Under the pieces are notes generated by a model. The model saw nothing but the letters and a program-made list of their open reading frames with translations. It did not search any database and was not told where the DNA came from. A stretch of DNA of 36,030 nucleotides from an uncultured Pseudomonadota bacterium (GTDB lineage Bacteria; Pseudomonadota; Alphaproteobacteria; Rs-D84): assembly GCA_949296475.1 (NCBI GenBank), contig CASFOK010000009.1, positions 1 through 36,030 of the forward strand. The letters are read 5' to 3'. This document shows, piece after piece, positions 3,643-36,030 of this stretch. Both the position numbers and the translations under genes were made by a program. The stretch's first letter is position 1. Each line of letters opens with the position of its first letter.

Positions 3643-6600
3643 TTAAAATCTATAAGAACCAGATAATTTTATATTATGGATTTGAATCATATCGTTGTAT
3701 TGGTATTTATAACCTAACCCGACTTGTATTCCATTAGCCGCCAAGACTTCTATACCTGCCCCCATATTTGCCCACAAAGGATTAACATCTATGTCATATT
3801 TTGTATAATCGTGTGCCAAAGCAAATTTATACTCCATGAAATCGGGCATACCCAATACATCATATTCCACGCCGACAGACGCATACGGTCTTATTTGTAT
3901 CCAAGCAGATGGGTATATACGTTTTTGTGCAATCACTGAATACCCAGGCGTTAAAATAAAGTATCCGTCAGATTGCAAATCCATGTATTCTTGACCTGCC
4001 GATTGTTCTGTCCCAGAAAATCCGAAATTATATCCAACGCGAGCGTACATATTGCCGACAATATATTGATTTAGCCAATCATGTAACAATCCCCATTCAC
4101 TGATAAGACTAAATGACGTACCATCACCGTCAATCGTAGAAACGTAGTTTTGTGTACGCGTAATATCAAACAAGTGCATATCCAAGAATGCGTTTCCATA
4201 TAAACGTGTTTTTTCACCTAAAATCTTTATAATATACCCACCAACGCCGATGTTTGTATCATCAACATTGATGTCAACGCGACCATTTGCACTTACCGAA
4301 CCGTAACTTAAATCAAAACTATCTGTACTGTCACCAGACATATTAGAGATACGACCAGCCAAACCGACAATCATCGTTTCAGATTCCTGCCAATCAAATC
4401 CACCAAAGGCTTTAACCCGATTCCCTTTTATATTCACATCGTCAGAACCGTTTTGTCTAAACATACCAAAATCAATATCCAACCAAGCCTTTTTCAAATT
4501 CCGATTACGATTCCAAATGAACTCGTCAAACGCATAGTGTTCAAAATCACGTGCATTTAGATGTTCGTTCAACGCGATACTACCCGCGACGTTTTCCAGT
4601 TCGCGTGCTTGGAACAAGCGACTGAAGCGCGACAAAGACGTACCATCTAATGTATTCTGATAGTTTTCCATACGGTTATACAACTCGTTTGACATAGTCG
4701 CCAAATTAGTACCGCCGAATATATATGGTATCGCTTCTATTGGTGTAGAATACCAGAAATTCTTATTCGCCAACTGTCCCGCAATAAGCGAATCCAACGC
4801 GCCTGCAGAAACGTATTCGCCGTCCGTGTGACCCGACGTTTTTGCAACAATGGGTTGTATTTTAAATACTTCTACTGGCCCGCCAAAACGTGGGTCAAAG
4901 ACGATATAAACGCCGTCTGCAACGCCATCATTATCTGTATCGCGTATAGACAGGTATACCGGCAAATCTTCATCAGCACCGTTATATTTGTTATACGATT
5001 CTAAGTAGTTGAAACAAATGCTGCCGTCTGCGTTACAGAAATTAACGTTTAGATTGCGAATTTTATCCCCAAGTTCTTGAATACCTTCACTGGCATCTAC
5101 CAGCCAAATGGCAGTACCTTGGTCAACAATACTGAACAAATCAATACCGATTTGACCGTTTTGCAATGGACTGTTATCAGAAGGCGTCCCAAAACCAGAC
5201 ACGTTTGAGACAAAGGTCCCACCAACAGTAATTAACGCCTGACCGCCTGGTGCGTTTGTAATCTGCCCCAACGTACCATCATCATTCAAACTGACAGAAG
5301 ACCAATAATTGCGCGCAGAATTATTACCACCAGACGTACCGTACGGCAAAATAGCAGTATTAATTAAACTGTTATTGTCAAATATAAAATTTTCACCAAT
5401 TGTCATTTCTTGTAAACCGACGAATTGAACGCCACCCGTAACATCGCCGGTAACATTAACGACAAGGTTGCCAACAGGATTCTGACTGTCACTGGTATCA
5501 ACACTTTGCAGTGTTGTTATTCCACCAGAATTAATCAAATCACCACTGATAGAAACATTACTGGCATTCATTTCTAAATTGCCGATTGTATTTTCTACAC
5601 TGCCATTAACGGTTATTGAACCGTTGGACTGCAAGGCTGTAATTTCTAATAATTGCCCGTTATTAGTAACAGAATCCGCCGTAACAGATTGCCCCAACAA
5701 CTGCATTGTTGCATTCTGATTACCCGATCCGTTTAAAACCTGGGTCAATGCCAAGTTGCTTTGATTTACCTCCAGATAAAAATTATTCAGGCGATTAACT
5801 GAAATTTGCAACAAAGCATCTGCGGACGTCCCTTCGCCAAAAACTAAATTTCCCGTTATTAATTTAAATGTATTTTCGGCGTCCATATTATTTAGGTTAA
5901 AGCCGTATTCTAATGTCGTAGTACCAGTAATTAAAATATCTAAATCACCAGCATTAACAAAAGAAGCACCTGTTTCCGCATCTCCTCCATTAACAGTTAA
6001 ACTGTCTGCATTAATTATTATAGAACCGCTATTAGAATCGTTCTTGACAGTACCAGCGACATTTATATCAACGCCGGTTACGCCTGTTTGACGGCGAACA
6101 ATCAACGAAGTACCAGAATTTTCAAGACTTCCAACGTCCTGTTCAGACCCGGTCCCTTGATTTACTGTTAAATCGCCCCCCAGTTCAACGATAAAGTCAC
6201 CACCGTTATTCTGCACACTGCCGTCCGACGTCATTTCTGATGCAATAATTGTAACATCACCCGCACCAGAATTTACAAAAAAGCCGTCCGTACTTAACGC
6301 ACCGGTCAGTGTTATATTAGTATTACCCCCGCCTATGTTAACGGCGCCTGTTGTCATTGTATTTGCGCTTACCGATAAACCTGCCCCCGCAATCAAAGAA
6401 TTTGTAACAGTAAAAGAATCCGCATTATCAATCGTCAACATTCCCCCTGCAGATATCGCCCCGAAACTCATATTAACAGACGGCACGGTATTCGTAGTCA
6501 ACGCCAACGAATAATTTTGCGCTATTTGTAAAGTATCCGATACATCAACTGCACCATCAGACTTTATTGTAAATCCCGTCTGATTAATATCAGGTCCTGC

Positions 6601-6771
6601 ATAAAAAGTATTATCCGACGGATCTTCTGGTATGGTCATACCAATGTACATATTTGTAACAGACAAACCGCCAGATCCGATAACAGATCCGTTATTGTTA
6701 TCTGGATAAATGGGCGCCGCATACAACGACACTGGCACCATAGTCAATATAAAAGATATTAATTTTTTCAT
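3643..6771 (-). CDS. Autotransporter (type V secretion), beta-helical passenger and barrel
   Basis: The 1042-residue product begins with a signal peptide (MKKLISFIL to SLYA). A long Asn/Gly/Thr/Ser-rich passenger, about residues 25-600, contains repeated short strands such as TVNGS and LTVNQG, as in right-handed beta-helix adhesins. A linker and then an autotransporter barrel of roughly 270 residues end in the outer-membrane signature SYRF with terminal Phe. The first in-frame codon of the longer frame is TTG (6792), and its extra residues would spoil the signal peptide, so ATG 6771 is used. GGAAG lies 14 bases upstream, which is a rather long spacing. The protein is probably displayed on the cell surface; its ligand is unknown. 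Confidence 0.88.
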   Translation of the reverse strand: MKKLISFILTMVPVSLYAAPIYPDNNNGSVIGSGGLSVTNMYIGMTIPEDPSDNTFYAGPDINQTGFTIKSDGAVDVSDTLQIAQNYSLALTTNTVPSVNMSFGAISAGGMLTIDNADSFTVTNSLIAGAGLSVSANTMTTGAVNIGGGNTNITLTGALSTDGFFVNSGAGDVTIIASEMTSDGSVQNNGGDFIVELGGDLTVNQGTGSEQDVGSLENSGTSLIVRRQTGVTGVDINVAGTVKNDSNSGSIIINADSLTVNGGDAETGASFVNAGDLDILITGTTTLEYGFNLNNMDAENTFKLITGNLVFGEGTSADALLQISVNRLNNFYLEVNQSNLALTQVLNGSGNQNATMQLLGQSVTADSVTNNGQLLEITALQSNGSITVNGSVENTIGNLEMNASNVSISGDLINSGGITTLQSVDTSDSQNPVGNLVVNVTGDVTGGVQFVGLQEMTIGENFIFDNNSLINTAILPYGTSGGNNSARNYWSSVSLNDDGTLGQITNAPGGQALITVGGTFVSNVSGFGTPSDNSPLQNGQIGIDLFSIVDQGTAIWLVDASEGIQELGDKIRNLNVNFCNADGSICFNYLESYNKYNGADEDLPVYLSIRDTDNDGVADGVYIVFDPRFGGPVEVFKIQPIVAKTSGHTDGEYVSAGALDSLIAGQLANKNFWYSTPIEAIPYIFGGTNLATMSNELYNRMENYQNTLDGTSLSRFSRLFQARELENVAGSIALNEHLNARDFEHYAFDEFIWNRNRNLKKAWLDIDFGMFRQNGSDDVNIKGNRVKAFGGFDWQESETMIVGLAGRISNMSGDSTDSFDLSYGSVSANGRVDINVDDTNIGVGGYIIKILGEKTRLYGNAFLDMHLFDITRTQNYVSTIDGDGTSFSLISEWGLLHDWLNQYIVGNMYARVGYNFGFSGTEQSAGQEYMDLQSDGYFILTPGYSVIAQKRIYPSAWIQIRPYASVGVEYDVLGMPDFMEYKFALAHDYTKYDIDVNPLWANMGAGIEVLAANGIQVGLGYKYQYNDMIQIHNIKLSGSYRF

Positions 6772-28741: not shown

Positions 28742-30217
28742 CTAGAAACTTGCGTTTATACCAACCCTTATACCCAAAGACCTGTAAATAGATTCTACTT
28801 CTTTATTAACAGAGCAAACCCATCCAGGACATGAATCACGCAGACTTTGAATTGTTTGAGCTGCAAGATTATATGCCAACATGTCTGCTTCGGACGAATA
28901 ACCACTGCCATAATTAATTTCATACCCGTCTACATTATATATACCGCCTGTTAAAATTCTATTCCATTCAGTCATATAATAATTTTCGTTAAGGTATGTT
29001 TTTGCGTCTGCATCACTTACAGAGTAATAATCATATGTCAAGCCAATAGACAATGCAACCGAATTTGTGATTGCAGTTGTCCAATTTGCCCCAAGTCCAA
29101 AATGTATTGCAGAGCCAATACCCGCCTCGTCCTCTACGCTTTTCGGGTGCGCCCAGTCAAAACGATACGGCTGGTCACCTTCGGACTTATATCCTGGCAG
29201 TCCTAATTCCACACGACCGTTAACTGCATTATTTTGATTTATTGTATAATTCATATCCATGGCAATATAAGGACCCGACCAGGTTGCCTCATAAGAATGA
29301 CTTTTACCAGGCTGATAGTAATAAAACGTATCACCCGTAGCAAAATTGGAACTGTCACTTGGTACACTAGTTGCACCATACGGGTTATCACGAACTAGGA
29401 TTGTACTTCCATTAAAAATCACAACTGGGTCACATTGAACTTCGCCATCAATTTCAAAGCAAGTCATTGTCTCAACTGCTACGCCATAGTTTTTTTCTGT
29501 TGTTAATTTATAACTAAAATGTCTATATCCCAAAGAAGGCGTAAAGCGCACATTACCAAGTTTAAAGAAATCTGTCAGTCCTAACCCAGCATTAAAGCCC
29601 AACATACTGCCGCCCTTGCTGGTACCAATGGATAACGCATGCCCCATTCGGTCACCTATATACCCGATACAATTACCAGCACCATCTACAGATTCACATA
29701 CAGCATTTATAAAATACCCGCCATTAGTAACGTCGTCATCATACATGGCGGATTCACCGTATTGCATTCCGTATTTCACACCAGCATCAACTGTTAACCC
29801 AAAATTACCGGCATCAAAGTTATATCCTGCGCGAACATCTAACACATTCCATGCGACATTATCATAACTTAGTATACTGCCTGATTCTTTCATATCAAAT
29901 CGCCACATTGCATTTTCATGTGCAATGCCTGCATCCACCCAAAAACCTTTTTTACTTGCCGGCTGCGTCCCTGTATTTTTTGTTGCGACATTACTGGCAG
30001 CAGTGGTTCTTGACGAAGAAGGCAAAGAATAACGCACCCCAGAATTAGCATAAGACGTATTATAATTTGTCGCCTGACGTTGCGCATACGTTTGACTTGA
30101 ATACCCTTGTTGTGGGGACTGATAGTACCCAGTATAGTAGGTTCCCGCCGCATTTGCTGTAACAGGGAAAAACGCCAACAAAGAATATCTGAATAATACC
30201 TTGTAAAAATTTTTCAT
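28742..30217 (-). CDS. Large outer-membrane beta-barrel protein
   Basis: The 491-residue product has a signal peptide of about 23 residues. A Tyr/Gln/Ser/Thr-rich linker runs to about residue 90, and about 400 residues of amphipathic strands (WVDAGIAHENAMWRF, NFGLTVDAGVKYGMQYG, VRFTPSLGYRHFSYKL) end in GINASF with terminal Phe, the signal for BAM-dependent insertion. Cysteines occur in exposed-loop-like positions. The overall order resembles omptin- or Opa-like barrels, but the omptin catalytic motifs were not seen. AAGGA lies nine bases before the ATG. It leads a probable three-gene operon. Confidence 0.75.
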   Translation of the reverse strand: MKNFYKVLFRYSLLAFFPVTANAAGTYYTGYYQSPQQGYSSQTYAQRQATNYNTSYANSGVRYSLPSSSRTTAASNVATKNTGTQPASKKGFWVDAGIAHENAMWRFDMKESGSILSYDNVAWNVLDVRAGYNFDAGNFGLTVDAGVKYGMQYGESAMYDDDVTNGGYFINAVCESVDGAGNCIGYIGDRMGHALSIGTSKGGSMLGFNAGLGLTDFFKLGNVRFTPSLGYRHFSYKLTTEKNYGVAVETMTCFEIDGEVQCDPVVIFNGSTILVRDNPYGATSVPSDSSNFATGDTFYYYQPGKSHSYEATWSGPYIAMDMNYTINQNNAVNGRVELGLPGYKSEGDQPYRFDWAHPKSVEDEAGIGSAIHFGLGANWTTAITNSVALSIGLTYDYYSVSDADAKTYLNENYYMTEWNRILTGGIYNVDGYEINYGSGYSSEADMLAYNLAAQTIQSLRDSCPGWVCSVNKEVESIYRSLGIRVGINASF

Positions 30218-30248
30218 GTTCTTAAATCCTTCCTACATCATTTATATA

Positions 30249-30257
30249 AGTATATCA
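30249..30257 (-). promoter_or_regulatory. Extended -10 promoter of the 28742 operon
   Basis: On the reverse strand TGATATACT is an extended -10 element. A -35 is weak or absent (TTACAT at 17 bases). Confidence 0.45.
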
Positions 30258-30311
30258 TAAAAATGTTGAAAATGTAATATCATCTTTGTAAGATTTTGTT
30301 TGCGCACAAGA

Positions 30312-30395
30312 ATTGCGGATATGGCGACTACGAAGCGAAGCGTAGTGCCGCCCTGTCGCAGAATGCAAACTTGTGACATATTGCGGATATGGCGA
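30312..30395 (+). repeat. 16-base direct repeat: partial copy of the tRNA-Leu 5' end
   Basis: ATTGCGGATATGGCGA occurs at 30312-30327 and again at 30380-30395, where it holds the first 13 bases of the tRNA-Leu and three bases before it. The copies are 68 bases apart. A strong hairpin directly follows the first copy. Confidence 0.85.
30323..30349 (+). other. Hairpin in the partial tRNA copy
   Basis: ACTACG (30327-30332) and CGTAGT (30341-30346) pair around AAGCGAAG. GGC at 30323-30325 also pairs with GCC at 30347-30349 across a one-base bulge. The arm grows out of the partial tRNA copy. Confidence 0.55.
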
Positions 30396-30466
30396 AACGG
30401 TAAACGCGCAGCACTAAGGATGCTGTGGAGAAATCCTTGGGGGTTCAAGTCCCCCTATCCGCACCA
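30383..30466 (+). tRNA. tRNA-Leu (anticodon AAG), CCA encoded
   Basis: The acceptor stem GCGGATA pairs with TATCCGC. A three-base-pair D stem, the anticodon stem CAGCA/TGCTG, a long variable arm (GGA-GAAA-TCC) and the T stem GGGGG/CCCCC complete a class II tRNA. The loop CTAAGGA gives anticodon AAG, and discriminator A at 30463 fits leucine. CCA is encoded at 30464-30466. Most bacteria use GAG for this codon box; A34 implies editing to inosine. Confidence 0.9.
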
Positions 30467-30545
30467 AAACTAAAAATAAGTTATTAAATATTCTTTTTTC
30501 CGCTTGCCCGCAATTTCATAAATTTGCTAACATTGTAATCAAAGG

Positions 30546-33500
30546 ATGAAAAAGATAAGGCTATTTTTATTACTTAGTCTTGGTTTGCTGTATATTAACG
30601 TGGCAAACGCAGATGATAACGCTGATGTTGCACGCGCTGCGACACGGCGTGATGTTGCGGCAACCGTTGTTTCAACAAACAGACAACAATCTAACCCGAC
30701 AACATCTGCAACCGCCACTAAAACAAATCAAACTGCTATATCCCGTTATACATCTGACACTGTTGCTGCCAGTACGCAATCGGCTGTTCGCGATCGCGCG
30801 ACTGTGTCCAGAACCGAATCTGTAAACCGTTCTAACGCCACAGATTCCACTAACAGTAACAGGACGGTATCTGCCAGAACCACATCTAATGTTCAAACTC
30901 GTACGACAGAAACGCCTGCGACAGTTGTATCGTCGCCGTCAAGAACGTCGATTCGAAGCGCGACAACGACCGTACAAAGAACAACGCCACGAACCGGCGT
31001 ATCAAACACAACAGGTACGGCAACTCGGGGCAGCCAATCTGTATCGCGCAGCGCGATACAGACCAATTCCAGAACTGCAACACCTGTAATGAATACCGCA
31101 ACCGCACGTCGTGGTTCTGGGAATGGCGCAACAATTTCTCGCAGTACCACCAACACCACGACAGCATCGGTGTTATCCAGCAACTACACACAATGTCGCG
31201 AAGTTTATTACAGTTGCATGGATGAATTTTGCGCCAACAAGGACTCTCAGTTAAAACGTTGTGCTTGTTCGTCACGCGTTAATGAATTTGACAGCATCAA
31301 AAAACAGTTATCCGAAGTAGAAGATAAAATGTTGGACTTTAATCAAAGATTGCTGACTGTGAATATGGACAAAGAAGATGCGGCGGCACTGTTCCAAGCA
31401 ACCGAAGGCGAACTGGCTTTTCAACAAGAAGACACAAGCGAATCAAAAAAGTTATTAGATGAAATCGCAAAAAAATTAAATACCACTTTTGACGACAGCA
31501 CATTCAATCCGAATCTTTCACCGATATCGTTATCGTTAAACGCGGACGCTGCGTTTGACAGCGTTGATTCGTTAATGGGCTCTTCAACCACGACAAAAAC
31601 CGGGCCGGATTTATACAGTGCCGCCCTGCCCGTATGTCGTGAAATGGCGCTTGAGGTATGCAGTCAAGACGAACTGGACATCGCGGAAAGCGGTTATCAG
31701 ATGGCCATAGAGCAAGATTGTAACACCGTTGCGAAATCTTATGCCACCCAGCAAGACAAGGCGCGCGAAAAAATCCGTGAAGGCAGCGCATTGCTTGACA
31801 TGTCGCGTCTTGACATATATCAAAAGCGCAATTCTGACGACATATTAACATGTAAAAAGAAGATGTTGGACATGTTGACAGACACGACAGTATGTGGTGA
31901 CGACTTAGGTAAATGCCTTGACGTCAGTGGCAGATACATTGATCCATCTACGGGCGAAGCGATACTGACCACGAACTTGGTAAATTTAGGTACATTAATT
32001 ACGCGTCCTGAAACGAATCAGACTTGGACCGGTGCCCCCGGCAACGAGGTATTTGTATCATATTTAAATTCCAAGAAAAAGTTCTTGGAACCGGCGATGG
32101 AACAATGCCAAGACATTGCAGACTATGTCTGGGACGCGTTCATAGAAGATGCGTTGGCGCAAATAAAACTGGCCCAGGAACAAAAATTGGAAGACGTCCG
32201 TCAAAGTTGCACCACCTTAACAACGCAATGTTTGACACAGACTTCGGATTCACTGGAAGACTTTGACGCCCGTGCGTTATCCACATTCGGGGTCAAGGCA
32301 GATAAAACTGTTCGGGAAATGTGTGCAGAGGTACAGAATTCATGTACCGCATTGTTAAATGTAACCGACGGCGGTGACGCTTGGAATCAAGGCATGACGG
32401 AAATCGCCACAGACAAGACATATGAAACGATTCTTAAAACCTGTCGCGAGGTTGGGCGCGCTTGCATAATACAGTCTTGCAAATCCATATCTGGTAATTT
32501 TGGGCTATGTGAAAACATTCAAACATCGGTCAACCGCAAGGCCATCATCAACAGAACATCTTGTTGGGACGAAGTTGTTCAGTGCGTTGCGGACGCAGGC
32601 GTTGAATCCATTAATAATATAAACCTGGCGCTGATTGCGGATAACTTGGTAAATCCGAACACTAACGCATTTTACGAATCGTTATATGGTGCAAACGCGA
32701 TAATAACGAACAATGACGTTACTAACAACACATGTATAAACGGTACATCTAACGAGAATTGTATATATGACATATGTGCGTCTGAGTGCGGTCTTAACAA
32801 CAACGGCATTTATACGTTATTGTCATCGTCAGACTGCAAAACATGTCGCATAGCGGAAAGAATCTGGGGTAATTGCGAGGCGCAACCAGCAACGATACTT
32901 AACCAAACAACCACGCACAACAAGATTAAAATAGGTACCGATGAAACGCTGTTGTCTTGGTTTGCCAAGAACACAAATACAGCAGAAGCAATTGACAGTT
33001 GTCGTGACACGTCTTGCGGACCGGGCTTTGTATCGTATTGGGATGAACAAAAGGGTACGATGATATGTATATCTGCGCAAAATGTATCTGATGACGGACT
33101 GATATGCCCGACCAACCATTGGTTGATTACAGTTAGCAACGATTATAAAAACTGTTGCAAAACCAATCAGGGTGGCGCGGGTCTGCCGGACGTTTTCGGC
33201 AACTGTTGTGGTATTGATCAAACCCAAAACTCCATAGACGGATTAAACTGGAATAACAACGACGAATATTGCGGAAAAGACACCACAACGCAAAACATTT
33301 CCGACACGAACAATGATGTACAAAATCAAAATGACGAAGAAGTACCCGCCACAGGATTATGTTTGCCAGATTCTTCAGAGTTTGTCGTCGCCTTTAACCC
33401 AGGAACCGACCAATATTATAACACAAATAATAATATCGGGTACTTAATTTGCGTTGGAACATTATCTGGCGGAGATGTGCTATCAGAATATCCAAATGGT

Positions 33501-33767
33501 CAGACAGTAAACTGCGATGGTTATTATGTCTTTGTAAACAAGAACACTGGTAAGTACATATCACCAAAATACGAGGGCACGACGACCACCGACACAACCA
33601 ACCTGATGCAACCGATTAATTTATATCGCACAGAAACAAACGAAAACGCAACCACATCAACGAACTGCACATACGAATACATAAATAACAACTGGGTTTG
33701 GTCGGGTCAAGATTGCGCGGTCACGTCGCCTACGCATTGGACGGTCACATACCAAGCCGTAAATTAG
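30546..33767 (+). CDS. Very large secreted Cys-rich protein
   Basis: The 1073-residue product starts with a signal peptide (MKKIRLFLLL to ANA). A low-complexity region rich in Thr, Ser, Arg, Asn and Ala runs to about residue 210. The cluster C217, C224, C229, C239, C241 followed by SS has exactly the spacing seen in the protein at 232. A long helical part with scattered cysteine pairs follows, such as CREMALEVC, CTTLTTQC and CREVGRACIIQSC. The C-terminal third is Asn- and Cys-rich and includes SCGPGFVSYW (about residue 823) shared with the protein at 13139. The AAAGG site abuts the ATG. No known family or catalytic motif was recognised. It is probably an exported, disulfide-rich surface or matrix protein. 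Confidence 0.82.
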   Translation: MKKIRLFLLLSLGLLYINVANADDNADVARAATRRDVAATVVSTNRQQSNPTTSATATKTNQTAISRYTSDTVAASTQSAVRDRATVSRTESVNRSNATDSTNSNRTVSARTTSNVQTRTTETPATVVSSPSRTSIRSATTTVQRTTPRTGVSNTTGTATRGSQSVSRSAIQTNSRTATPVMNTATARRGSGNGATISRSTTNTTTASVLSSNYTQCREVYYSCMDEFCANKDSQLKRCACSSRVNEFDSIKKQLSEVEDKMLDFNQRLLTVNMDKEDAAALFQATEGELAFQQEDTSESKKLLDEIAKKLNTTFDDSTFNPNLSPISLSLNADAAFDSVDSLMGSSTTTKTGPDLYSAALPVCREMALEVCSQDELDIAESGYQMAIEQDCNTVAKSYATQQDKAREKIREGSALLDMSRLDIYQKRNSDDILTCKKKMLDMLTDTTVCGDDLGKCLDVSGRYIDPSTGEAILTTNLVNLGTLITRPETNQTWTGAPGNEVFVSYLNSKKKFLEPAMEQCQDIADYVWDAFIEDALAQIKLAQEQKLEDVRQSCTTLTTQCLTQTSDSLEDFDARALSTFGVKADKTVREMCAEVQNSCTALLNVTDGGDAWNQGMTEIATDKTYETILKTCREVGRACIIQSCKSISGNFGLCENIQTSVNRKAIINRTSCWDEVVQCVADAGVESINNINLALIADNLVNPNTNAFYESLYGANAIITNNDVTNNTCINGTSNENCIYDICASECGLNNNGIYTLLSSSDCKTCRIAERIWGNCEAQPATILNQTTTHNKIKIGTDETLLSWFAKNTNTAEAIDSCRDTSCGPGFVSYWDEQKGTMICISAQNVSDDGLICPTNHWLITVSNDYKNCCKTNQGGAGLPDVFGNCCGIDQTQNSIDGLNWNNNDEYCGKDTTTQNISDTNNDVQNQNDEEVPATGLCLPDSSEFVVAFNPGTDQYYNTNNNIGYLICVGTLSGGDVLSEYPNGQTVNCDGYYVFVNKNTGKYISPKYEGTTTTDTTNLMQPINLYRTETNENATTSTNCTYEYINNNWVWSGQDCAVTSPTHWTVTYQAVN

Positions 33768-33820: not shown

Positions 33821-33850
33821 TTGACAAATTTTTACAATCGTCTATATTAT
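33821..33850 (+). promoter_or_regulatory. Promoter of the lipoprotein array
   Basis: Consensus TTGACA is followed by TATATT after 16 bases or TATTAT after 18. It lies just before the first gene of the array; no further promoter of similar quality is seen in the 20-40 base gaps between the array genes. Confidence 0.65.
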
Positions 33851-33873: not shown

Positions 33874-34374
33874 ATGTATAAGAAAACGCAAAACTTTTAT
33901 AAAAAACGTCTTCACTGGTCGCAGGGGCTGCCCATTTGGACGCGGGGCGAAACGGTGGGGAAAGAGAATGTAAAAATGACGTTTTCTGCATCAAAAACAA
34001 TCAAGATTTTAAAAAATCTGTCGGGGGCGGTCCGGAATTTTTCGGGCTGTTTTGTTTTTAACACGGTAAAAAACGGAACATCAAAACAAAACGTCGTACA
34101 AAACAAGCATTTTACGCAAACAGTTCCTTATAAATTAAAAGAAGCGGTATATTTATTGGGAATGGCGGGCGCAATAACATTTATCGCCCCGTCATGTAAT
34201 ACTTTTAATTCTGACGATTATCCGCCAAAACCAGACCCCGAGCCAAAATTTATAACCCAATGCAACCAGAATCAGGCTTTACGCAATAAGGTTACTGATG
34301 ACGAACCCATGTCAAGCGTCACGCATACCTTGTTTGACTTGCGAACCTTTCGTGCATTTAACAAACAAAAGTAA
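33874..34374 (+). CDS. Divergent first member of the lipoprotein array, long N-terminal extension
   Basis: The 166-residue frame carries the array-type signal (YKLKEAVYLLGMAGAI to APSC, Cys at about residue 109), but about 90 residues precede it. The part after the Cys (DYPPKPDPEPKF and so on) lacks the conserved C-terminus of the later members. ATG 33874 has AAAGG 13 bases upstream, which is long; ATG 33976 is an alternative. The extension is basic and has no membrane segment, so it would have to be removed or tolerated before export. It may be a chimera or a gene in decay. Whether it is translated as drawn is uncertain. Confidence 0.5.
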   Translation: MYKKTQNFYKKRLHWSQGLPIWTRGETVGKENVKMTFSASKTIKILKNLSGAVRNFSGCFVFNTVKNGTSKQNVVQNKHFTQTVPYKLKEAVYLLGMAGAITFIAPSCNTFNSDDYPPKPDPEPKFITQCNQNQALRNKVTDDEPMSSVTHTLFDLRTFRAFNKQK

Positions 34375-34392: not shown

Positions 34393-34914
34393 ATGAAATA
34401 CACAAAAAAGTTGTCTTATAAATTAAAAAAAGCATTACCTGTGGTTGGTATGATGGGAACTATGCTGATGACGGCATGCGAACCGAACCCCGAACCTGAC
34501 AAAGAAAGCCAAACAATCCCGGTTTTTATCCCCTTGTTCAAAACGGATGTATACGGTTCGGAAAAGTTAGACTACACGGTAAAGACGTCTAAAATTGAAA
34601 TATCCATAAACCCGTATGATGCATATAAAATGATTTCTATGGGCAGTGTGAATTTTGTTACCGACACCATAAACAAATATTCAAAAGACAAAAACATTAA
34701 AACGATTTATTTGGTTCCCGAAGGAGACTGGTCTAACTTAACAGCCCAGAACATAACAGCACTACGTAACCACGCGCTGAGATATGCAAAAGACAATTCA
34801 CCAAAGGTACGTGGTAAAGGCGATTTAAATTTCAGACTGGGTGAAGCATCCAAGGTTCCAGAAGACAGCCTGTGGTTCGTACGTAATGGTTGGACAATTA
34901 ATAAATACAGATAA
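34393..34914 (+). CDS. Array lipoprotein, copy 1 (variable middle)
   Basis: The 173-residue product begins MKYTKKLSYKLKKALP and has a lipoprotein-like signal ending in MTAC. Its middle differs strongly from the next copies except for a strand IKTIYLV and the following DWS. Its last 38 residues, from SPKVRGKGD to GWTINKYR, match copy 2 with one change. ATG 34393 has GGGGTG six bases upstream. The family is not one I can name. The lipid anchor would place it in the inner or outer membrane facing the periplasm or the surface. Confidence 0.78.
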   Translation: MKYTKKLSYKLKKALPVVGMMGTMLMTACEPNPEPDKESQTIPVFIPLFKTDVYGSEKLDYTVKTSKIEISINPYDAYKMISMGSVNFVTDTINKYSKDKNIKTIYLVPEGDWSNLTAQNITALRNHALRYAKDNSPKVRGKGDLNFRLGEASKVPEDSLWFVRNGWTINKYR

Positions 34915-34950
34915 CCCCCGACAAAATAATAAAAACAAAAAGGACGAAAC

Positions 34951-35406
34951 ATGAAATACACAAAAATGTTGCCTTATAAATTAAAAAAAGCATTACCTGC
35001 GATTGGTATGATGGGCTCTATGCTGATGACGACATCATGCGAACAAGAAAAAGATGACTACGAAAACCAACAAAAAACAATTGAATTAACTTTTGGTGCT
35101 TGGGATTCGCACAATATAGTAAAAATACTTCCAGACGGCACACGTACAGTCAGCGATACAATCATAAAATATGCAAACGACCCAACTATTAAAACAATTT
35201 ACTTGGTTACGAACGATGATTGGTCAGGCTGCACACATCCTAGTATAACAGCAATACGAGTCAACGGTGTAGAACACCCAATAAACTACTCACCAAAGGT
35301 ACGTGGCAAGGGCGATTTTAATTTCAGACTGGGTGAAGCATCCAAGGTTCCAGAAGACAGCCTGTGGTTCGTACGTAATGGTTGGACAATTAATAAATAC
35401 AGATAA
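34951..35406 (+). CDS. Array lipoprotein, copy 2
   Basis: The 151-residue product has a basic N-terminus, a hydrophobic stretch (ALPAIGMMGSMLM) and TTSC at the lipidation site, then acidic residues (EQEKDD). The mature part reads TIELTFGAWDSHN, a conserved DTIIKYANDPTIKTIYLV, a variable patch (TNDDWSGCTHPS) and the conserved C-terminus. The lipobox is loose by E. coli rules. AGGA lies six bases before the ATG. It is nearly identical to copy 3 outside the variable patch. Confidence 0.82.
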   Translation: MKYTKMLPYKLKKALPAIGMMGSMLMTTSCEQEKDDYENQQKTIELTFGAWDSHNIVKILPDGTRTVSDTIIKYANDPTIKTIYLVTNDDWSGCTHPSITAIRVNGVEHPINYSPKVRGKGDFNFRLGEASKVPEDSLWFVRNGWTINKYR

Positions 35407-35441
35407 CCCCCAACAAAACAATAAAACAAAAAGGATAAAAC

Positions 35442-35897
35442 ATGAAATATACAAAAATGTTGTCTTATAAATTAAAAAAAGCATTACCTGCGATTGGTAT
35501 GATGGGCTCTATGCTGATGACGACATCATGCGAACAAGAAAAAGATGACTATGAAAACCAACAAAAAACAATTGAATTAACTTTTGGTGCTTGGGATTCG
35601 CACAATATAGTAAAAATACTTCCAGACGGCACACGTACAGTCAGCGATACAATCATAAAATATGCGAACGACCCAACTATTAAAACAATTTATCTGATTC
35701 CAGATGATGATTGGTCAGACTACGCATATCGTAATATAACAGCACTGCGTGTTAATGGGGTGGAACACCCAATAAACTACTCATCAAAGGTACGTGGCAA
35801 GGGCGATTTTAATTTCAGACTGGGTGAAGCATCCAAGGTTCCAGAAGACAGCCTGTGGTTCGTACGTAATGGTTGGACAATTAATAAAAACAGATAA
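35442..35897 (+). CDS. Array lipoprotein, copy 3
   Basis: The 151-residue product matches copy 2 except mainly in the patch IPDDDWSDYAYRNITAL (about residues 86-102), plus single changes such as SSK for SPK and KNR for KYR. The ATG lies 491 bases after that of copy 2, and the gaps between genes are near-identical, so the unit was duplicated recently. AAAGGA lies six bases before the start. Each copy appears to be an intact gene. Confidence 0.82.
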   Translation: MKYTKMLSYKLKKALPAIGMMGSMLMTTSCEQEKDDYENQQKTIELTFGAWDSHNIVKILPDGTRTVSDTIIKYANDPTIKTIYLIPDDDWSDYAYRNITALRVNGVEHPINYSSKVRGKGDFNFRLGEASKVPEDSLWFVRNGWTINKNR

Positions 35898-35933
35898 CCC
35901 CCGACAAAATAATAAAAACAAAAAGGATAAAAC

Positions 35934-36030
35934 ATGAAATACACAAAAATGTTGCCTTATAAATTAAAAAAAGCATTACCTGCGATTGGTATGATGGGCT
36001 CTATGCTGATGACGACATCATGCGAACAAG
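35934..36030 (+). CDS. Array lipoprotein, copy 4 (cut by the window end)
   Basis: The first 32 codons are present, from MKYTKMLPYKLKK to the TTSC lipidation site and the following EQ. The codon after MKYTKML is Pro as in copy 2, not Ser as in copy 3. The array therefore continues beyond the window. Confidence 0.8.
   Translation, partial: MKYTKMLPYKLKKALPAIGMMGSMLMTTSCEQ

Follow-up and report, generated by a model that had tools for sequence, protein, structure and literature searches.

Layout of the lipoprotein array

The window, meaning the whole stretch of DNA analysed here (36,030 nucleotides), is one complete contig (C9) of an 882-kb genome in 21 contigs. Names on the records from its genus place the host in Candidatus Enterousia, of the alphaproteobacterial order Rs-D84; one of them, JADINC010000016.1 (G059), is Ca. 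Enterousia avistercoris. Enterousia is a genus of the gut with reduced genomes (PMC12306168). Toward its 3' end, the window carries a tandem series of lipoprotein genes downstream of a gene for a large secreted protein (Table 1). The lipobox cysteine was present in every copy in the window, and the dN/dS of copy 0 was 0.5.

Table 1. Positions of the array and its neighbouring features in the window
Feature	Position	Strand	Remark
Large secreted protein, 1073 aa, conserved upstream neighbour	30546..33767	+	Position kept in many Enterousia genomes
Promoter-like site TTGACA-N16/18-TATATT/TATTAT, with no other strong one ahead of the array	33821..33850	+	Consensus scan
Copy 0, open frame whose family-like part is limited to a lipoprotein leader (34108-34269), with a short degenerate tail	33874..34374	+	Sister species has copy 0 too
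Copy 1, lipoprotein, 173 aa, variant with a long N-half	34393..34914	+	
Gap 1, with AAAAAGGA ribosome-binding site, almost the same as the gap after copy 3	34915..34950	+	
Copy 2, 151-aa lipoprotein, orthologous to copy 2 in the sister species G175 (dS 0.05)	34951..35406	+	
Variable patch of copy 2, codons 84-107	35200..35271	+	
Copy 3, lipoprotein, 151 aa, copy-2 backbone with an imported patch, extra relative to the sister species	35442..35897	+	
Patch of copy 3 acquired by import, codons 84-107	35691..35762	+	Codons 84-88 as in the terminal copy; codons 102-107 from a donor absent from the 156 genomes searched
Copy 4, 5' end only, gene cut by the contig end	35934..36030	+	

The earlier note had suggested that the array runs on past the window. 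The rest of it was found on contig C14, which opens with a further complete lipoprotein copy (21-476 of locus L003), followed by a Cys-rich secreted gene (L003 569-1786) before which the array ends, and then by pth, an outer-membrane-type gene and polA. The first 97 coding bases of the partial copy on C9 and of the copy on C14 are identical, while two bases just 5' of the ATG differ. Because of this difference, the two may be separate genes, and the array may total four or five copies.

The contig breaks fall inside the array, which would favour an assembly artefact, a danger that the earlier note had recognised. However, in the sister species G175 the array is complete within a single contig (CASETE010000003.1), which carries the large protein, the leader-only copy 0, copies 1, 2 and terminal, the Cys-rich gene, pth and polA. 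Since the order there is the same on one contig, C9 and C14 are neighbours, the array is real and the present genome contains one extra copy or more. In other species, too, the arrays were found within single contigs (56-274 kb). An artefact was therefore rejected; taken jointly with a diversity-generating retroelement, it has a vanishingly small probability. No reverse transcriptase was found in the genome, control genomes gave matches, and the changes between copies are not restricted to adenines and comprise, among others, a series of silent changes at third codon bases, so a retroelement mutator was rejected as well.

Expression

Matches to the promoter consensus were no more numerous in the region than expected by chance, and the position of the strong one before the array is suggestive. 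Between the copies, a consensus scan of the + strand found no promoter save one weak match inside copy 1. The gaps between copies are 35-36 bases long and contain AAAAAGGA ribosome-binding sites, and each of copies 1-3 has its own start, ribosome-binding site and open frame. We infer that all copies are co-expressed, giving several versions per cell. A terminator-like hairpin lies at 34024-34053, inside the copy-0 frame and about 340 bases 5' of copy 1; a similar sequence also precedes arrays elsewhere, and the hairpin is a possible attenuator.

The earlier note had proposed an antigen-variation system. In its classical form, where silent cassettes donate sequence to one expression site, such a system would agree with the leader-only copy 0 and with block transfer between copies. 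However, the copies are intact and spaced by about 35 bases, each has a start and a ribosome-binding site of its own, and promoterless partial cassettes are absent save copy 0. With neither silent cassettes nor a single expression site at the locus, the proposal was not supported in its strict form, and this classical form is very improbable.

Mosaic structure of the copies

Copies 2 and 3 are identical at 430 of 456 bases. Of the 26 differences, 20 are concentrated in codons 81-113 (Fisher 9e-10), a degree of clustering that was never reached in 20,000 random placements; this verified the near-identical ends and differing centre described earlier from the window. The dS between them was 0.64 in codons 81-113 and 0-0.07 elsewhere, about tenfold over the ends, and windows of 25 codons along the two genes reproduced this step. 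Given this difference in dS, the patch of copy 3 is an imported tract rather than the product of selection on single mutations. Recombination breakpoints were found at the patch edges. At codons 84-88, copy 3 agrees with the terminal copy at 7 of 7 differing sites; codons 102-107 contain a run of changes seen only in copy 3, mostly silent, for which no donor tract was found in 156 genomes of the genus. Over 50 informative sites, copy 3 alternates between the copy-2-like and terminal-copy-like states in only 7 runs (p<5e-5).

Copy 1 shares its C-terminus with copy 2 (dS 0.08 and dN 0.01 over the C-terminal 38 codons), and the gaps following copies 1 and 3 are nearly identical, as the earlier note had stated. 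Its middle had been called wholly different. The divergence stood, with codons 33-80 saturated in dS and a dN of 0.64 relative to copy 2, but it is of older date, the same long copy 1 being present in G175. Segmental recombination between copies, by gene conversion as the note proposed or by unequal crossing-over, was borne out.

The comparison with the sister species extends the pattern to orthologues. In the terminal copies, dS was 0 in the leader and 1.05 in the patch, while it was about 0.05 in pth, the outer-membrane-type gene and polA; all 33-codon windows of these three genes and of the Cys-rich gene had a pS of 0.19 or less. In the large upstream gene, windows ranged from pS 0 to 0.71, so recombination is not confined to the array. 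Silent divergence from the sister was 0.28-0.46 upstream (28742-33767 of the window) and about 0.05 downstream (L003 569-5699). The array thus appears to lie at a boundary of recombined chromosome.

Genus-wide pattern

Using one genome per species, we found the lipoprotein family in 84 of 156 genomes of the genus (66 of 103 good genomes); other genera of the host's family showed it weakly. Copy number, to which the earlier note had drawn attention, proved variable in this species-level comparison, with 1-5 copies per locus across Enterousia relatives. Within arrays, pS was lowest in the leader (0.14), followed by the C-end (0.25), the N-half (0.38) and the patch (0.44). Of 40 leaders, 34 had their nearest relative within their own genome (or sister pair), compared with 16 of 40 patches. 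In the pair G136/G177, pS was 0.05-0.09 in the leader and 0.54-0.86 in the patch, compared with 0.37 in the Cys-rich gene and 0.12-0.34 in the other neighbours.

Two-domain fusions of the lipoprotein domain were seen in G096 and G022 (L065 4841-6674 and L016 1147-1971). The same leader was also seen on a diverged mature domain of the HDTxYxW type (L072 3897-4859 and 11973-13413, L018 and L019), which suggests, as far as sequence comparison goes, that leaders may be shared among related domains.

The hypervariable loop

Over 12 non-overlapping pairs, pN/pS reached 0.97 in codons 92-98, compared with 0.18 for the leader and 0.16 for the C-end. This seven-residue loop would be under relaxed or locally diversifying selection, with a pN/pS not clearly above 1. 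The earlier note had expected diversifying selection and an excess of amino-acid change in the patch. Both stood only relative to the ends; an omega above 1 was not proven, and between copies 2 and 3 the dN/dS over codons 81-113 was 0.23. Because of this low ratio and the many silent changes, import explains most of the patch change.

An AlphaFold2 model built with 52 aligned mature sequences had a mean pLDDT of 92 and a pTM of 0.83. In the numbering of the mature protein, it predicted a strand (51-58), a loop and a long helix (67-84). Codons 92-98 correspond to mature residues 63-69, which in the model form the loop and the first helix turn after the central strand; this segment is presumably exposed. 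No clear fold relative was found among PDB folds or viral models. The best Foldseek match had an E of 0.14, the top fold matches being common alpha/beta arrangements, and the best VIA match was MiaB (Z 5.2, rmsd 3.6, 81 aligned).

These values bear on mostly neutral concerted evolution, in which export and folding constrain the ends, the loop tolerates change and recombination homogenises the ends. A loop pN/pS of about 1 and not higher, with silent sites of the patch diverging too, is what it would predict. However, silent divergence of the patch between the sister species is several-fold over that of the flanking genes, which requires import of diverged sequence, and the copies remain open and occur across phyla. 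We regard it as an unlikely account.

The Cys-rich partner gene

Of 42 distinct array ends, 39 are followed by a same-strand gene for a secreted-looking protein with 4-10% cysteine. These ends lie in several places on the chromosome, beside pth/polA, fructose-bisphosphate aldolase and dnaK. In G136/G177 its pN was 0.15, as fast as the lipoproteins, compared with 0.02-0.03 for other neighbours. The lipoprotein array and this fast-evolving gene make up a linked, conserved two-part module. The Cys-rich proteins (L003 569-1786 and its counterparts) often end in FCDxxGCFxLPG..I.Y.

The constant linkage and the shared rate of change would suit an immunity array, in which the lipoproteins neutralise a secreted antibacterial, possibly the Cys-rich protein itself, and copies acquired elsewhere serve as orphan immunity. 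There are precedents in TilA/TslA (PMC10730906) and tipC (PMC9484751). However, Pfam shows no toxin domain in the Cys-rich protein, which resembles a structural protein of the EGF/TNFR type; no T6SS sheath gene was found in the genome, nor any PADLOC match. We therefore hold this reading only tentatively. The fuller form, a two-part antagonism with the Cys-rich protein as weapon, the array as immunity, Bacteroidales-captured copies as orphan immunity and specificity in the swapped loop, is rather improbable.

Copies in Bacteroidales

In CALVDG010000025.1 (L078 5472-6623), 1,152 bases are 98.35% identical to the array of Enterousia G138. The G+C content drops from about 0.55 to 0.40 in the insert, and genes of Bacteroidales type flank it on both sides. 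An Enterousia-like copy occupies the same site in an independent assembly, Ca. Coprenecus stercoravium DXAW01000128.1 (L074 ~5987-6650), and the insertion site is empty in two relatives, G220 and G223. By these comparisons, lipoprotein genes very probably crossed from an Enterousia-like source into gut Bacteroidales. The Cys-rich gene is truncated in both insertions. These two genomes thus have copies without an intact Cys-rich gene, which would fit the immunity reading.

Several further features were observed in Bacteroidota. A promoter motif of Bacteroidales type lies upstream of the inserted array. A repeat of ~270 bases beside the insertion was considered as the end of a mobile element and rejected, being a general intergenic repeat of that genus. 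In Alistipes sp. HAN006, at least six copies were found (L090, L091, L092, L097, L100, L104 and L153). They are scattered, lie next to housekeeping genes, in several cases at contig ends, and have signal peptides of Bacteroidota type.

The portability across phyla, the lipid anchor and the hypervariable loop also fit a surface binding repertoire, that is, adhesins or decoys that recombination diversifies and that are directed at the host, at mucus, at phage or at other microbes. No known adhesin fold was among the structure matches, and such a repertoire is a possibility to which we give limited credence.

Proposed explanation

Taken together, the observations are explained best, and in our judgement with good probability, by an operon-like tandem array of lipoproteins of an undescribed family, in which recombination swaps the centres and a loop contacts a variable partner. 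The near-identical 5' ends encoding the signal peptide, the 3' ends and the gaps act as homology arms. As the sequences show, recombination among neighbouring or incoming copies alters copy number and replaces central segments, while the ends stay uniform within one genome. The mature protein is predicted to be a lipid-anchored single alpha/beta domain, in which the loop after the central strand changes fastest. This loop would most likely meet a variable extracytoplasmic partner, such as a competitor toxin, the linked Cys-rich protein, or a phage or host molecule.

The lipoprotein family had not been characterised before. Its arrays, in gut bacteria that are uncultured and have reduced genomes, bear a clear mark of recombination, with a constant partner gene and entry into Bacteroidales. 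If the loop decides toxin, phage or host binding, this would be a rare, traceable and testable exchange of a surface or immunity repertoire between phyla.

Comparison with known systems

Searches of the lipoproteins against Pfam, NCBIfam, PHROG, PADLOC and PDB sequences gave nothing above noise. In Pfam-A, none of 52 family members matched at E 0.01, and the window proteins had no match even at E 10. No relatives were found in phage and plasmid collections, and Rfam identified only two tRNAs in the window. The lipoprotein family is therefore new, while its evolutionary mode is already known from Staphylococcus lipoprotein clusters.

The S. aureus lpl (nuSa-alpha) and csa1 (DUF576) clusters are likewise tandem intact lipoprotein paralogues of varying copy number, and, as in Enterousia, they recombine via blocks conserved between paralogues. 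According to two reports, lpl/csa1 genes have a conserved block and a copy-number accordion, and recombination between conserved blocks reaches from the end of one gene across the gap into the beginning of the following one (PMC7360770, PMC9484751). In lpl the conserved block is central, whereas in Enterousia the ends are conserved; unlike DUF576, the Enterousia family has no Pfam match, and its host is Gram-negative. One DUF576 lipoprotein of such a tandem cluster, TilA, confers immunity to the lipase toxin TslA, whose gene is found at the 3' end of that cluster, although its family had long been discussed as antigen (PMC10730906). The TslA cluster and the Enterousia array both have a secreted protein gene at the 3' end (PMC10730906).

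Borrelia PFam54/ospC loci and vlsE are tandem or recombining lipoproteins of surface type (PMC11389397). The Enterousia array differs in having no silent cassettes and no family match, and as far as seen it is not on a plasmid. Bacteroidales rAID clusters are also arrays of diverging small proteins in gut bacteria, protective in that case, but the orphan immunity proteins described there are SUKH-type, unlike the Enterousia lipoproteins (PMC12247911).

In streptococcal tipC arrays, the immunity genes carry a lipoprotein signal and recombine, and blocks conserved at the 5' and 3' ends flank a variable centre (PMC9484751); all of these features are found in Enterousia. There is no family match between the two, and neither a known toxin nor a type VII system was seen beside the Enterousia array. 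The array shares its mode of evolution with lpl/csa1 and tipC, outside the membership of either family, and is closer to tipC because the ends are conserved and the centre is variable in both.
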